NCBI GenBank assembly: GCA_001516055.1
Contig: LOEZ01000061.1
Coordinates: forward strand, 62,001-126,000
Reading direction: 5' to 3'
DNA length: 64,000 nt
From: Gracilibacter sp. BRH_c7a
Lineage (GTDB): Bacteria > Bacillota > Desulfitobacteriia > Desulfitobacteriales > Syntrophobotulaceae
Shown: positions 5,053-61,792 of the stretch, in pieces
Position numbering within the stretch: position 1 is the first letter of the stretch
Layout: each line of letters starts with the position of its first letter
The notes under the pieces: generated by a model
Seen by the model: the letters and a program-made list of their open reading frames with translations, nothing else
Told to the model about the DNA's origin: nothing
Databases searched by the model: none
Made by a program: the position numbers and the translations under genes

Positions 5053-5106
5053 ATCTAATTATTATCTGATTTAGAGATATGAAAGCTAAATGTGGAGGCT
5101 CTAAAG

Positions 5107-6345
5107 ATGAAAGTTCTATATTATGATTGCTTTAGCGGAATATGTGGTGATATGAATCTAGGTGGGATGCTTGATCTGGGAGTGGACAAGGATCTGCTTT
5201 TAGACGAACTGGGTCGCTTGAACTTAGAAGAACACTATAATATAGATATACGCAAGGAAACTAAACGAGGAATATTAGGCACAAGGGTAGAGATAAAACT
5301 CGACTATCCATCTCAAGCTGTTGCCGATAATCATTGCGAGCATCATTCACATGCTAGGAATCTAAAGTCTATAACAAATTTATTGGAGGATAGTTCTTTA
5401 TCTGAGTCCGTTAAAACGAGAAGCTTGAAAATGTTTCAGCTTCTAGCTGAAGGAGAAGCAAAAGTTCATGGTGTTGATATTGATGATATTCATTTCCATG
5501 AAGTAGGTGGAACAGATGCAATTTTGGATATCGTAGGAGCAGCTTTCTGCCTTGAATATCTTCAGGTAGATAAGGTTATGGCCTCTAGTATAGAGCTTGG
5601 TGGGGGATTTGTTAACTGTGAACATGGATTATTACCGGTACCCGCTCCGGCGGTAATCGAATTACTTCAGGGCATACCGGTTAAATTAGGGAAAGTACAG
5701 TTTGAGACCACAACACCTACGGGGGCTGTAATTTTAGCAGCCAGTGTGCAGGAGTATACAGATCAACTTGATTTTATGATAACGAAGACAGGATACGGAA
5801 TAGGGAAAAGAGATTTGGAAATCCCTAATGTACTACGAATCTATCTCGGGGAAACAAGCAGTAATGAGAATAAGGTCAATGAATGGGATTCAAAAGTAAA
5901 TGATAAGTATAAAGCGAAGCATGAATATATGATTGAAACAAATATCGATGATATGAATCCAGAGTACTATGAGTATATTGAAGAGAAGCTGTTTGCAGTC
6001 GGTGCTTTAGACACCTTTAAAACTCTAGTAATGATGAAAAAAGGTAGACCTGGGATAAAGCTAAGTGTTTTAACGTCTGTGGATAATATATCAGAGATTG
6101 AAGAAGTAATATTTCGGGAGACTTCGGCTATAGGCCTTCGGGGTTATCCGGTAGATAAGAAAATGCTTCCAAGAGAGATTGTTCAATTATCAACTAAATT
6201 TGGCCTCGTAACAGTTAAATCTTCTCATTTTGGAGACCAAAATAAGGTTAAGCCAGAATACGAAGATTGCAAAAGACTGGCACTAGAGAATAATGTTACA
6301 CTAATCGAGGTCTATGAGGAGATACATAAAAGAATGAAAAGCTAA
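5107..6345 (+). CDS. larC: nickel-pincer cofactor nickel insertase LarC
   Basis: LarC uses CTP to insert nickel into the pyridinium-bisthiocarboxylate precursor of the NPN cofactor used by lactate racemase and related enzymes. The N-terminal YYDCFSGICGDMNLGGMLDLG and HFHEVGGTDAILDIVGAA blocks are family hallmarks. A histidine-rich loop (HCEHHSHARN) lies near residue 80. The 412-residue frame is continuous, whereas in some lactobacilli larC is made by programmed frameshifting. The ATG at 5107 sits 8 bases after GGAGG. Neither larB, larE nor larA is within the window. Confidence 0.88.
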   Translation: MKVLYYDCFSGICGDMNLGGMLDLGVDKDLLLDELGRLNLEEHYNIDIRKETKRGILGTRVEIKLDYPSQAVADNHCEHHSHARNLKSITNLLEDSSLSESVKTRSLKMFQLLAEGEAKVHGVDIDDIHFHEVGGTDAILDIVGAAFCLEYLQVDKVMASSIELGGGFVNCEHGLLPVPAPAVIELLQGIPVKLGKVQFETTTPTGAVILAASVQEYTDQLDFMITKTGYGIGKRDLEIPNVLRIYLGETSSNENKVNEWDSKVNDKYKAKHEYMIETNIDDMNPEYYEYIEEKLFAVGALDTFKTLVMMKKGRPGIKLSVLTSVDNISEIEEVIFRETSAIGLRGYPVDKKMLPREIVQLSTKFGLVTVKSSHFGDQNKVKPEYEDCKRLALENNVTLIEVYEEIHKRMKS

Positions 6346-57718: not shown

Positions 57719-58120
57719 ATGACCACCTTTAATTTGAACGTCGTCTCACCTGATGGCCAGGTCATTGACAAAGAAGTTGAATTCGTTGTTTTGCCCAGTG
57801 TGGATGGAGAATTAGGTATCCTGGCAAATCATGCACCGCTTATTGCTGGACTGGAAGCAGGAGTAATGCGCTACACAGAAGACGGAAAAGTTTATAAAAT
57901 AGCAATATGCGGCGGCTTTGTAGAGGTTGCCAAGAACAAGGTCAGTGTCTTGGCTAATACAGCTGAAAAGGCGGAAAAGATTAATGTAGAAAGAGCCTTG
58001 GCAGCGAAGGAGAGAGCTCAGAAACGGTTACAAGACAAAAGCCCGGATGTAGACGTTTTAAGAGCGGAGATGGCTCTTAAGAGAGCTGTAGCCAGACTAA
58101 AGACAACGGGTAAATTATAA
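57719..58120 (+). CDS. atpC: ATP synthase subunit epsilon
   Basis: Epsilon has an N-terminal beta sandwich (VVSPDGQVIDKEVEFVVLPSVDGELGILANHAPLI in pieces) and a C-terminal helical hairpin that can inhibit ATP hydrolysis. Length is 133. It starts 4 bases after atpD and closes the operon. Confidence 0.96.
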   Translation: MTTFNLNVVSPDGQVIDKEVEFVVLPSVDGELGILANHAPLIAGLEAGVMRYTEDGKVYKIAICGGFVEVAKNKVSVLANTAEKAEKINVERALAAKERAQKRLQDKSPDVDVLRAEMALKRAVARLKTTGKL

Positions 58121-58148
58121 TTGAATTATGATAATTGATAATAAAAAG

Positions 58149-58191
58149 GCTTCTGTACAATGAACTAGCTAATAGTTCATTGTACAGAAGC
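58149..58191 (+). terminator. terminator of the atp operon
   Basis: A perfect 19 bp inverted repeat (58149-58167 with 58173-58191, 5-base loop) is followed by TTCTATTTT. Confidence 0.92.
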
Positions 58192-58267
58192 TTCTATTTT
58201 AGTATATTCGATTTTCCCAATTCTAGGATATTATTCTACTTACTTATCTGAATTTTCTAAAATATAT

Positions 58268-58309
58268 CCCCCCTAGCCGGATTGTTTATTTTTTTTAGAA
58301 CAATATAAT
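58268..58309 (+). promoter_or_regulatory. cbiM promoter with upstream C6 tract (candidate metal-sensor operator)
   Basis: TTGTTT (58282-58287) and TATAAT (58304-58309) are 16 bases apart. Six C (58268-58273) in AT-rich flanks sit 8 bases before the -35. CsoR/RcnR-type repressors bind G/C tracts flanked by short AT inverted repeats. The flank here (ATAT/TAGC) is an imperfect match. No B12-box (GCCACTGG) is visible up to the cbiM start. Confidence 0.4.
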
Positions 58310-58401
58310 AAGAATCAAAGCAACTTTATGGTGGTAAATTAGTATAACAATATTTTGAGATAAGGCTGATACTAACAAACTGACAAGGGGGATAATTGGG
58401 A

Positions 58402-59064
58402 ATGCATATACCTGATGGTTTTTTAGATGTTAAGACCGCGGCAACAGCTGCTGTAGTAAGTGCAGTAGCTATTAGTTATTCGATAAAACAAACCAGAGAA
58501 GTTTTAGATGATAGACAAATACCTATGATGGGTGTTGCAGCAGCTTTTATATTTGCAGCACAGATGGTTAATTTTCCTGTTGCAGGGGGCACCTCTGGTC
58601 ATTTGATTGGTGGGACATTAGCTGCCATAACGTTCGGGCCTTGGGCGGCTATGCTGATTATGTCCGCAGTACTTATTATACAAAGCTTTGTCTTCCAGGA
58701 TGGAGGGATTTCTGCTCTAGGCGGAAATATCTTGCTTATGGCGGTAGTAGCACCTTTAGTAGGGTATTTTGTATATTCTTTGCTTATGGGTTCGGGAGAG
58801 AGCAGAAAACGGGTACTGGCAAGTACATTTGTGGCAGGATGGATTTCCACTATTTCAGCGTCTTTGGTTTGCGCTATCTTGTTGTCAATATCAAATATTG
58901 TCTCAATTCAAGTAGCTGTTCCGGCTATGCTTGGATGGCATACTCTAATTGGTATAGGTGAAGGTTTGGTTACTGCATTCGTTGTTTCTTATTTGACGAA
59001 AGTTAAGCCTGGTATGGTCAGAAGATATAGGGTGAATACCAAGGAAAGTGTAGGTGCTATGTAA
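58402..59064 (+). CDS. cbiM: ECF Co/Ni transporter substrate component CbiM/NikM
   Basis: The 220-residue membrane protein begins MHIPDGFLD. In this family the N-terminal Met and His2 bind the metal inside the membrane, so translation must begin at this ATG and not at the in-frame TTG at 58396. GGGGG lies 10 bases upstream. Co2+ versus Ni2+ cannot be read directly; context leans to nickel. Confidence 0.88.
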   Translation: MHIPDGFLDVKTAATAAVVSAVAISYSIKQTREVLDDRQIPMMGVAAAFIFAAQMVNFPVAGGTSGHLIGGTLAAITFGPWAAMLIMSAVLIIQSFVFQDGGISALGGNILLMAVVAPLVGYFVYSLLMGSGESRKRVLASTFVAGWISTISASLVCAILLSISNIVSIQVAVPAMLGWHTLIGIGEGLVTAFVVSYLTKVKPGMVRRYRVNTKESVGAM

Positions 59065-59375
59065 TGCCAAAAATAAAAAAAGAGGTAATTATTGGGATAT
59101 TTATTGCTCTTCTTATAGTTGTAATTTTAGCACCTTTAGCTTCCTCTAACCCAGATGGACTGGAAAGAGTAGCCGAAGATCTTGCTTTTCTGGAAAGGGC
59201 AGATGGCAGGGAAGTGATTTCATCACCCTTGCCCGATTACGAAGTGCCTGGATTGGAGAATAAGACTTTGGCAGGAATTCTGGCAGGAATAACGGGAACA
59301 CTTTTAACCTTTGCCCTAATGATGATACTAGCCAAGTTAATCGCTACTTCTAAAAAGAATAAACAAATGTCTTAG
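59064..59375 (+). CDS. PDGLE-domain small component (CbiN/NikN-like)
   Basis: The 103-residue protein has two helices (about 9-27 and 70-95) flanking SNPDGLERVAED, the PDGLE motif. Such small proteins accompany CbiM/NikM and are needed for metal uptake. Its ATG overlaps the cbiM stop. PDGLE forms accompany Ni as well as Co systems. Confidence 0.85.
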   Translation: MPKIKKEVIIGIFIALLIVVILAPLASSNPDGLERVAEDLAFLERADGREVISSPLPDYEVPGLENKTLAGILAGITGTLLTFALMMILAKLIATSKKNKQMS

Positions 59376-59392
59376 ATACAAGGGAAAATATT

Positions 59393-60199
59393 ATGAACAA
59401 CTTTTTTGAGCAATTAAGCAATAAACAAACAATTATCCACGAGCTGGACACTAGAGTAAAGATTATTAGTGTTGTCGGTTTTATACTTATTAGCTCTTCG
59501 CTTCAATCCTTTTTAGGACTCGCTGTAGGAGCTGCTTTTCTCATGATTGTTCTGAAGCTAGTGGGGACTCCAATCTCACCTATCCTACGGAGATTGGCTT
59601 GGATACTTGTCTTTGGAGGAGCATTAATAGCCTTATTTCCTTTTATTACTCCTGGCAAGGAGATTCTTGCATGGCAATTAGGAACTTTGAAGATATCAGC
59701 AACACAGGAAGGTGTTGATAAGGCGATACTTCTTTTCTTGCGTTTGCTTTCGGCTGTTCTAGCAGTTACTCTTCTTAACGCAACAACCGGTTTCAGGGAA
59801 GTAATTAATGGTTTTCGTAAGCTTCATATGCCTAATATATTAGTCAGTATAATCGAATTTACGGTAAGATATTTCTTCGTGCTAGGAGATGAATTAACAA
59901 GAATGAAGCTGGCTCGTAAAGCAAGGGGCTATGATTTAAATCAAAGTATTATTAATCGAAAGGCATTAATGACAATTACTCAATTGATTGCTGTGTTGTT
60001 TATCCGATCCATGGAAAGAGCGGAAAGAGTATATTGTGCCATGTTAGCAAGAGGTTATGGTGGCGTAGGCTCTAATGGAGAACATCGACCTGTTAAAAGG
60101 AGTGAAAGAGTTCAGATGGCCGATATACTATGGGGAATAGGATTCGTATGCTTCACTTTAAGTATTAAATTATTAGAAGCTGGTGGAATTATTGGTTAA
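59393..60199 (+). CDS. cbiQ: ECF transporter transmembrane subunit CbiQ
   Basis: The T-component has an ELDTRVKIISVVGF start, about five helices, and two coupling motifs with ARG cores (ARKARGYD and AMLARGYGG) that contact the ATPases. Length is 268. Its 3' end overlaps cbiO by 17 bases. Confidence 0.9.
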   Translation: MNNFFEQLSNKQTIIHELDTRVKIISVVGFILISSSLQSFLGLAVGAAFLMIVLKLVGTPISPILRRLAWILVFGGALIALFPFITPGKEILAWQLGTLKISATQEGVDKAILLFLRLLSAVLAVTLLNATTGFREVINGFRKLHMPNILVSIIEFTVRYFFVLGDELTRMKLARKARGYDLNQSIINRKALMTITQLIAVLFIRSMERAERVYCAMLARGYGGVGSNGEHRPVKRSERVQMADILWGIGFVCFTLSIKLLEAGGIIG

Positions 60200-61019
60200 C
60201 TGTATTGAAGTAAGAGATTTGTTCTTTAGCTATGAAGATGGAACCCAGGCTCTTAAAGGGATAAACCTAGATATAGAGAAAAGTACCAGAGTTGCGATTC
60301 TCGGTCCTAACGGAGCTGGAAAATCAACTCTGCTTTTACATTTTAATGCATTGAATCTTCCACAGGCAGGTAATGTCTACGTGGAAGATCTGGAAGTAAC
60401 TAAGAAAACAGAAAAGCTCGTCAGAACCAAAGTGGGGATGGTCTTTCAGGATCCAGATGATCAAATCTTTTCTATGACGGTCAGGGAGGATGTGAGTTTC
60501 GGTCCCCTGAACATGGGTCTGTCACCTGAAGAGGTACAGGCAAGAGTGGACTCCGCTCTCAAGGCAGTAAGAATTGAGGATTTGGCTGAGAAAGCCCCTT
60601 ATCATCTAAGTTATGGACAGAAGAAGAGAGTAGCGATAGCAGGAGTATTGTCCATGAGTCCTGACATTATTATACTGGATGAGCCCTTCGCCTACCTTGA
60701 TCCTCGGGGAAAATGTAGCTTGCTGGAAATCCTGGATGACTTATCTCAGAAAGGGAAAACAGTTGTTATTGCTACCCATGATGTCGATTTGGCTGCTGAA
60801 TGGGCTAATAGAATCGTGGTTATTCAAAACGGGAAGGTCCTAGCTGAAGGAGACAAGAGTATCCTAATTGATCCCATAGTGATTGAACAGGCCGACCTTG
60901 AATTTCCGACTGTAACAAAAATATTTCTGGAGTTTCCTAGTCATGAGCGAGAGCGGTTTCCTATGACAATTAAAGAGGCCATTACCAGAATTAAGCGAAT
61001 GAGTAATTATTACAGGTAA
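60183..61019 (+). CDS. cbiO: ECF transporter ATPase CbiO
   Basis: This ABC ATPase has Walker A GPNGAGKST (about 43), FQDPDDQIFSMTVREDV, the signature LSYGQKKRVAIAGVL and Walker B IIILDEPFAYLDP. Length is 278 from GTG at 60183; a TTG at 60192 is an alternative start. It energises the CbiMNQ importer. Confidence 0.92.
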   Translation: MELLVNCIEVRDLFFSYEDGTQALKGINLDIEKSTRVAILGPNGAGKSTLLLHFNALNLPQAGNVYVEDLEVTKKTEKLVRTKVGMVFQDPDDQIFSMTVREDVSFGPLNMGLSPEEVQARVDSALKAVRIEDLAEKAPYHLSYGQKKRVAIAGVLSMSPDIIILDEPFAYLDPRGKCSLLEILDDLSQKGKTVVIATHDVDLAAEWANRIVVIQNGKVLAEGDKSILIDPIVIEQADLEFPTVTKIFLEFPSHERERFPMTIKEAITRIKRMSNYYR

Positions 61020-61045
61020 TTAGATAGGTATATTGGAGAAAACAG

Positions 61046-61088
61046 AAAACCTTGAAATCTATCCTTACGGACTGAATTTCAAGGTTTT
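61046..61088. terminator. terminator between cbiO and the metal sensor gene
   Basis: AAAACCTTGAAAT (61046-61058) pairs perfectly with ATTTCAAGGTTTT (61076-61088), 17-base loop; usable on both strands. Confidence 0.75.
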
Positions 61089-61136
61089 AGTATATTTATA
61101 ATTAAAAGAGGCGCGATTAATCAAATGAAGTTTATA

Positions 61137-61427
61137 CTATTTTAAAAATTTGTCAATAGCATCGTTTAATTTTCCAAGTACCTCTGTATCGTTTTCCTCA
61201 TAGGCATGTAGTAAACAGTGATTAATATGATCGCTGAGTATTATCTTTCCAGTACTGTTTATGGCTGAACGGACAGCAGATAATTGAATTAAGATATCGC
61301 TACAGTCAATATCATCATCAACCATACGTTTTATTCCCTCCATATGGCCAATGATTCTGGAAAGTCTATTAATGACACTTTTTTTATGGGGATGCTGATG
61401 AGAGTGGGTATGGTCAGCTGCTTTCAC
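61137..61427 (-). CDS. CsoR/RcnR-family metal-sensing repressor
   Basis: The 96-residue all-helical protein matches the DUF156/CsoR family: INRLSRIIGHMEGIKRMVDDDIDCSDILIQL and SDHINHCLLHAYE. A cysteine in DCSD and the HxxxC pair of DHINHC make the CHC metal set. A histidine-rich N-terminus (HTHSHQHPHKK) recalls nickel sensors of the InrS/RcnR kind. The start is GTG after AGGGGAG. It converges on cbiMNQO, so it may control it; copper sensing is the alternative. Confidence 0.85.
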   Translation of the reverse strand: MKAADHTHSHQHPHKKSVINRLSRIIGHMEGIKRMVDDDIDCSDILIQLSAVRSAINSTGKIILSDHINHCLLHAYEENDTEVLGKLNDAIDKFLK

Positions 61428-61792
61428 ATAAGACTCCCCTTCCCAAAAAATTAGTTATTATGTATATTATTTTATCATAAATAAAGAGATATAAAAAAGA
61501 ATTAAATTTCACAACTAACAAGTTGATAAGTTTTACTTTATCACGCAGTAAGCGTCCGTAAAAATTGGAACAACGGTCGCTAACTTCCTGATTGGTGCAA
61601 CTAAACCAACAAGTTGGTAAGTTTTACTTTATCACGCAGTAAGCGTCCGTAAAATTGGAACAACGGTCGCTAACTTCCTGATCGGTAAAACTAAACCAAC
61701 AAGTTGGTAAGTTTTACTTTATGTTTTGGGATTTAAGAGTTTGGTCAAACTATAAAAAAGAGATTAAAACTTGAGAGAAGTTGTAAAATAAA
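61428..61792. other. 365-base gap holding the tandem repeats
   Basis: No gene was found. It holds the tandem repeat described at 61515-61722. No good ywmB promoter was found in the remaining sequence. Confidence 0.6.
61515..61722. repeat. tandem 90-91 bp hairpin-forming repeat, 2.3 copies
   Basis: Copy 1 is 61515-61605 (91 bp), copy 2 is 61606-61695 (90 bp), and a 27 bp partial third copy is 61696-61722. The full copies differ by five substitutions and one A. Each unit contains an inner hairpin (61639-61650 with 61663-61674 in copy 2, 10 of 12 pairs), and outer arms TTGGTAAGTTTTAC (61614-61627) and GTAAAACTAAACCAA (61685-61699). CCAACAAGTTGG marks each unit start in copies 2 and 3. Confidence 0.88.

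Follow-up and report, generated by a model that had tools for sequence, protein, structure and literature searches.

A predicted InrS-type operator upstream of a nickel-importer-type operon in Gracilibacter sp. BRH_c7a and its relatives

Introduction

Which metal is carried by a four-gene importer operon of Gracilibacter sp. BRH_c7a, and what controls its transcription? The operon lies in a 64,000-nucleotide stretch of contig LOEZ01000061.1 (positions 62,001 to 126,000; hereafter the window, with coordinates counted from its first base), from a genome of the family Syntrophobotulaceae. An earlier note on this DNA had described a metal-importer operon with a C6 tract at its promoter and a convergent gene for a CsoR/RcnR-family protein, and had proposed nickel supply under direct metal repression. 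The sequence and the Pfam matches bear out the description: a metal-importer operon in the order CbiM-PDGLE-CbiQ-CbiO is preceded by a C6 tract adjoining the promoter. As to the proposal, the sequence evidence favors nickel over cobalt and direct control by a CsoR/RcnR-family protein through the C6 tract, but not repression by metal. Here, we report that the C6 tract is part of a real predicted control site, which cyanobacteria and related anaerobes share at their nickel-type importer genes, and that an InrS-type nickel-uptake regulon is the most likely reading of the locus. Numbers with the prefixes G, L, and C label genomes, loci, and contigs, respectively.

Results

A conserved predicted operator upstream of nikM

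The C6 tract forms one half of a 17-bp element, ATCCCC-N7-GGAT, the last base of which starts the -35 element; in the window, ATCCCCCCTAGCCGGAT is followed after 21 bases by TATAAT (Table 1). We searched 25 genomes of the family, 14 of which encode a strong NikM (match better than 1e-20). The operator, in the form ATCCCC-N7-G(G/C)(A/T)T with a -10 hexamer after it, was present before nikM in all 14 of these, 12 sites being obtained by comparison of upstream stretches and those of G004 and G006 by a strict pattern search. The 25 sites that we compared come from 16 genomes, those upstream of nikM in G004 and G006 lying outside this set. The gap was constant at 7 bases in these sites, most of those not upstream of nikM having been found using this fixed gap. 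A -10-like hexamer (at least 4/6 identical to TATAAT) lay 20–22 bases beyond the operator in 23 of the 25; the background was 4–10 of 25 for three-base windows starting at offsets 6–17, and windows starting at 23–25 gave 13–15 of 25. The sites taken from the one-mismatch operator pattern had been picked without using the -10.

The strict pattern, ATCCCC-N7-GGATTGT-N(8-18)-TATAAT, gave nine matches in 8/25 family genomes, none when reversed, and none in 48 genomes of the same order outside the family. Eight of the nine matches were upstream of nikM, and the ninth (G007) was upstream of two CGGC-domain genes. The 21-bp form TATCCCC-N7-GGATTGT, with at most one mismatch, occurred once in the window, the mean for 100 shuffled sequences being 0.03, a comparison that is not independent because the pattern was derived from the window site and its relatives. 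The operator and the -35 element share one T, the last base of the former and the first of the latter; given a transcription start 7 bases past the -10, the predicted center of the operator would therefore be near -42. The cbiM promoter was missing from the list of a generic promoter scan because TTGTTT agrees with TTGACA at just 3/6 positions.

Related sites upstream of cyanobacterial nikM

In the family of a Scytolyngbya genome, CCCC-N(3-8)-GG(A/T)TTG was found in 22/29 cyanobacterial nikM upstream stretches. Reversed stretches and reverse complements gave 0, and shuffles that preserved base composition only gave a mean of 0.1 (n = 200). This pattern was chosen after inspection of L063, L064, and L083, and the count without the two stretches from the genomes of L063 and L083 (L272 and L273) was 20/27; L301, which holds a distant CbiM, was excluded from the set. 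L286 and L295 were wrongly positioned in this count, and L286 does have the site. Sites of the two groups can be near-identical, as in cyanobacterial ATCCCCCTATCCAGGATTGAA (L278) and ATCCCCCCTACCAGGATTGTA of G003. All four cyanobacterial genomes tested encode an InrS-like protein, 41–43% identical to the window sensor. According to a review (PMC7055735), InrS binds upstream of the nik operon of Synechocystis and enhances its expression; our comparison covers the Scytolyngbya-family stretches, and the Synechocystis site itself lies outside it.

The convergent gene encodes an InrS-like sensor

The 96-residue protein encoded convergently with the operon matched PF02583 with 97.8 bits (cut-off, 22.8), and its closest solved structures were InrS (5fmn) and 6ahx, at 7e-22 each. 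Its C42, H67, and C71 have the same spacing as C53, H78, and C82 of InrS, and its N-terminal tail, described as histidine-rich in the earlier note, has five His residues. Both the Cys-His-Cys trio and H28 were invariant in 21/21 family sensors; position 28 was also His in 4/4 cyanobacterial proteins and Gln in 12/13 others. In the tree, a branch with support of 92/85 set the 21 family sensors, the four cyanobacterial proteins, and one Cohnella protein apart on one side. The genome encodes two more PF02583 proteins besides the window sensor.

Sensor and operator occur together. An InrS-like sensor (at least 47% identical) was found in 20/25 family genomes, including all 14 with a strong NikM and the operator. 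The operator stood before an importer-type or FmdE gene in 17 of the 20 genomes with the sensor and in none of the five without it (Fisher's test, p = 0.001, post hoc and uncorrected for kinship). Furthermore, csoR adjoins nikMN in two genomes, running in the same direction in G002 and divergently in G022, and in G020 the operator lies upstream of csoR itself, with TATAAT 21 bases beyond it. Just upstream of a csoR paralogue of G020, the operator takes a perfectly palindromic form within the 29-base palindrome AACCATATCCCCCCCGGGGGGATATGGTT (L159 7400-7428; symmetry read by eye). NikR (PF08753) was found in 0/25 family genomes and in 5/14 control genomes, and control of the nik operon by NikR was rejected on this ground.

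Gene order at the atpC-csoR junction

The earlier note had also taken the convergent order of operon and sensor gene as evidence of regulation. We dropped this argument: in ten relatives, csoR has atpC on one side and the murA-side genes on the other, and no importer lies in this interval (G003 and G014 carry extra DNA). The order is thus old synteny, into which the importer came later. Of the family genomes that we inspected, those of the window's genus alone have the importer operon at this place; in its second genome, G010, contigs break within the PDGLE gene. Window CbiM is 84% identical to that of G010 and 34–38% identical to other NikM proteins of the family, 4/4 tested of which are NikM-PDGLE fusions; among the matches listed, it is 44–57% identical to other CbiM relatives, from many lineages. 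Given this low identity and the old csoR synteny, it seems that an importer of another kind arrived next to csoR and was taken under the family operator.

Among the 80 closest CbiM loci, some of which have little upstream sequence, the operator was seen outside the window's genus only in cyanobacteria. The pattern flagged four of them (L006, L063, L083, and L069); L006 is the same as the G010 locus and hence not independent, and L069 is a different C-rich match. An operator variant in L064 was read by eye. No csoR-like gene was present in the examined stretches around these 80 loci.

Other genes behind the operator

A looser operator pattern (one mismatch, no -10) matched 51 places in 20/25 genomes, of which 44 were covered: 10 are nikM sites, 21 more were opened, and 13 are each overlapped, on one strand, by an open frame of 100 codons or more, three of these frames being short (123–155 codons). 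The open-frame criterion is imperfect, as the accepted loci L243, L245, L248, and L251 are also under opposite-strand frames of 114–167 codons. The 21 opened places comprised 13 upstream of the target genes given below, 7 within long open frames, and L252, which is outside any frame and has a downstream frame without a Pfam match.

FmdE-family genes (PF02663) recurred among the targets. In the window's own genome, the operator precedes such a gene cut by the end of contig C40 (L241 4833-5103); in G001, genes for a family-5 solute-binding protein and then a permease come after FmdE; G004, G007, and G008 have the operator before a methyltransferase-FmdE-FecCD cluster, and G008 has an additional one before FmdE. 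The remaining targets were nikQO (G007), csoR (G020), family-5 solute-binding proteins (G015 and G018), an Opp/Dpp-type ATPase gene (G020), the two CGGC-domain genes of G007 (PF08821; L253 1062-2131), which have the strict operator-promoter arrangement, and a contig-end fragment without a Pfam match (G009, L248). Both family-5 and Opp/Dpp systems can have peptides or nickel as substrates. Pfam backed the names at L241, L242, L243, L253, L244 (FmdE only), L246, L247, L250, L251, and L259, and L245 was named from its likeness to L243 and L244. No exporter gene was among the opened operator loci, where no search was aimed at exporters and 7/51 places were left unopened.

In G007, nikMN (near 1.38 Mb, L167) and nikQO (near 4.25 Mb, L246) are at separate loci, with the operator at both; the nikQ product is 72% identical to that of G005 and 33% identical over 122 residues to the cobalt-type CbiQ of G007 itself.

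The recurrence of FmdE in the own genome, G001, G004, G007, and G008 hints at a role for this family in nickel supply. FmdE as an operator target fits the FmdE structure paper (PMC2954224), which describes a mixed Zn/Ni site in the member from Desulfitobacterium and states that most PF02663 genes adjoin genes for metal-ion transporters.

The operon and the metal it carries

The operon contains all four components of an energy-coupling factor (ECF) importer, M, N, Q, and O (PF01891, PF13190, PF02361, and PF00005), and its N component is of the PDGLE type, which differs from classical CbiN (Table 1). As the earlier note had stated, no B12 box precedes it: a riboswitch in 58200-58400, which that note had named as a refutation of its proposal, was absent in both Rfam and permissive scans. 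No Rfam family reached its gathering score within the window, and a permissive scan of 58100-58450 listed neither a cobalamin nor a NiCo riboswitch. Riboswitch control was rejected, the permissive matches being mostly microRNA and small-RNA families over the terminator hairpin.

The other CbiM of the genome (contig C19) belongs to a cluster that also encodes CbiD, a CobT-type phosphoribosyltransferase, and two tetrapyrrole methylases and that a cobalamin riboswitch (RF00174) precedes; the operator is absent from the 350 bases before this CbiM gene. The riboswitch-led cobalamin setting of the second CbiM supports nickel for the window importer, and we regard nickel as very probably its metal from these genomic contexts. 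The larC gene that the earlier note had placed elsewhere in the window is present (5092-6345; PF01969), and this LarC-type nickel insertion protein may point to a use for nickel.

Table 1. Coordinates of features at the importer locus of the window
Feature	Position	Strand	Evidence
atpC	ends 58120		assigned from position and synteny
Hairpin terminator behind the preceding ATP synthase operon	58147..58193	+	terminator-like site, 20 pairs
Predicted operator, ATCCCCCCTAGCCGGAT	58266..58282	+	holds C6 tract 58268-58273; kept upstream of nikM in 14/14 family genomes with a strong NikM
Promoter	58282..58309	+	-35 TTGTTT 58282-58287, 16-bp spacer, -10 TATAAT 58304-58309; read from sequence
cbiM/nikM, substrate component	58402..59064	+	PF01891, 3e-65
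PDGLE protein, N component	59064..59375	+	PF13190, 2e-20
cbiQ/nikQ, transmembrane component	59393..60199	+	PF02361, 5e-45; TIGR02454 above cut-off
cbiO/nikO, ATPase	60183..61019 (start codon uncertain)	+	PF00005; TIGR01166 above cut-off
13-bp inverted repeat between convergent genes, probably a two-way terminator	61046..61088	.	read by eye; not listed by the terminator scan
InrS-like CsoR/RcnR-family sensor, 96 residues, convergent with operon	61137..61427	-	PF02583, 5e-28

Two further features were noted. Between csoR and the next gene of the window lies a tandem array (61513-61722; period 90, 2.3 copies, 95% match). In G023, a TwoAYGGAY RNA motif (RF01731, 52 bits) is located at L163 10871-11008, approximately 5.8 kb downstream of nikO.

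Discussion

We propose that the operon encodes a NikMNQO-type nickel importer and that the InrS-like sensor would act on the operator at 58266-58282, adjoining the -35 element. At low cytosolic nickel, the metal-free sensor, placed at about -42 in the position of a class II activator, would aid transcription; once nickel occupies the site formed by the Cys-His-Cys trio and the N-terminal His, the sensor would depart and import would drop. Other importer genes of the family would share this wiring. Judged from sequence comparison, binding of the sensor to the operator is highly likely. Activation by the metal-free form is favored by the InrS precedent, the weak -35 element, and the -42 position, and we give it an even chance; the same holds for the explanation taken as a whole.

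Comparison with known systems places the locus closest to InrS and nik of Synechocystis PCC 6803. The two share the CsoR/RcnR fold, the Cys-His-Cys trio with the N-terminal His, the lack of NikR, and a site ahead of an ECF importer of the nickel type, and cyanobacterial nikM promoters have an almost identical operator in the same 17-bp frame. They differ in that InrS also controls the exporter NrsD (PMC7055735), whereas the opened operator targets here held no exporter, none having been sought; moreover, Glu98 is replaced in the family sensors, and the family operator is also found at FmdE, FecCD-, and Nik/Opp-type genes. NikR likewise exerts nickel-dependent control over nickel import, but it is missing from 25/25 family genomes, and its operator, GTATGA-N16-TCATAC (PMC7055735), is unrelated to that of the window. 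The CsoR/RcnR efflux repressors share the protein family and a C/G-tract pseudopalindromic operator, CsoR operators being described as G-tract pseudopalindromes in PMC3902906. They govern efflux of copper or of nickel and cobalt, whereas window-type operators stand before importer-type genes, FmdE, CGGC genes, and csoR and have the dyad ATCC/GGAT rather than TAC/GTA. The CbiMNQO cobalt importers under B12 riboswitches have homologous subunits, and the window operon has no such riboswitch.

Several observations weigh against the proposed explanation. The looser operator pattern also matched its reversed control (11 places vs. 51). No convincing operator was found in G014, G016, and G017, which encode the sensor, and the window csoR lacks an operator of its own. 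Support is only moderate for the branch that unites the sensors of the family with those of cyanobacteria. In InrS, Glu98 links metal binding to release from DNA; at this position the window sensor has Lys86, and the 21 family sensors have Lys or Arg in 17 cases, Asp in 2, and Glu in 2. The -10 at most nikM sites is a full TATAAT, which leaves less need for an activator. Co-repression by nickel is a rival in view of the lost Glu98, the overlap with the -35, and the many sites that have a full TATAAT: the nickel-bound sensor would sit on the operator and block the -35 element in a NikR-like manner, reversing the usual CsoR/RcnR polarity. Importer-type targets would be expected to be off under nickel, the operator shares one base with the -35 element, and in most of the family sensors Lys or Arg replaces the allosteric Glu of CsoR and InrS. 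This rival, and with it the metal repression proposed earlier, has to contend with the weak -35 of the window (TTGTTT) and with the review (PMC7055735), in which the nickel members of the family that are named lose DNA affinity upon metal binding and InrS at nik, the closest known case, acts as an activator; we consider it unlikely. A bolder version, in which the CsoR/RcnR fold replaces NikR as the master regulator of nickel uptake with reversed polarity (nickel as co-repressor) over NikMNQO, Nik/Opp-like, and FecCD-like importers and FmdE, including a transporter from another lineage, is more doubtful still. If the sensor instead behaved like the well-studied repressors CsoR and RcnR, as the operator position allows, its metal-free form would repress the operon until nickel or copper removes it. 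Importers would then be metal-induced, odd for all importer targets together, and InrS enhances the cyanobacterial nik operon (PMC7055735), so that we hold such repression to be highly improbable.

Two further alternatives concern the binding protein and the metal rather than the polarity. A different protein might bind the operator, the CsoR-like gene being a chance neighbor of the operon, as would suit the old synteny and the two additional PF02583 proteins of the genome; the operator at csoR in G020, the adjacency of csoR and nikMN in G002 and G022, the co-occurrence of sensor and operator, and the presence of the same site in cyanobacteria with InrS-like proteins make this improbable. There is likewise little likelihood that the importer carries cobalt under a cobalt-sensing CsoR/RcnR protein. 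The NCBIfam and Pfam family names refer to cobalt, and RcnR senses nickel and cobalt alike (PMC7055735); on the other side stand the missing B12 riboswitch, the other CbiM in its riboswitch-preceded cobalamin cluster, the fingerprint of the sensor, which with its Cys-His-Cys trio and His tail is InrS-like and unlike RcnR, and the regulon partner FmdE, with its mixed Zn/Ni site in the Desulfitobacterium structure (PMC2954224).

The CsoR/RcnR family has mostly been described in terms of efflux control, and among the open-licence papers listed by our searches, none dealt with a nickel-uptake regulon of Firmicutes run by an InrS-like protein. The control site described here points to a nickel sensor that would govern uptake rather than export alone. 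If the proposed InrS-type regulon is true, uptake control would be an old and main role of the InrS-like subgroup, seen in anaerobes without NikR that have a near-cyanobacterial operator, and the polarity of such sensors would become directly testable. It would also tie the FmdE-family proteins, the role of which is unclear, to nickel supply.

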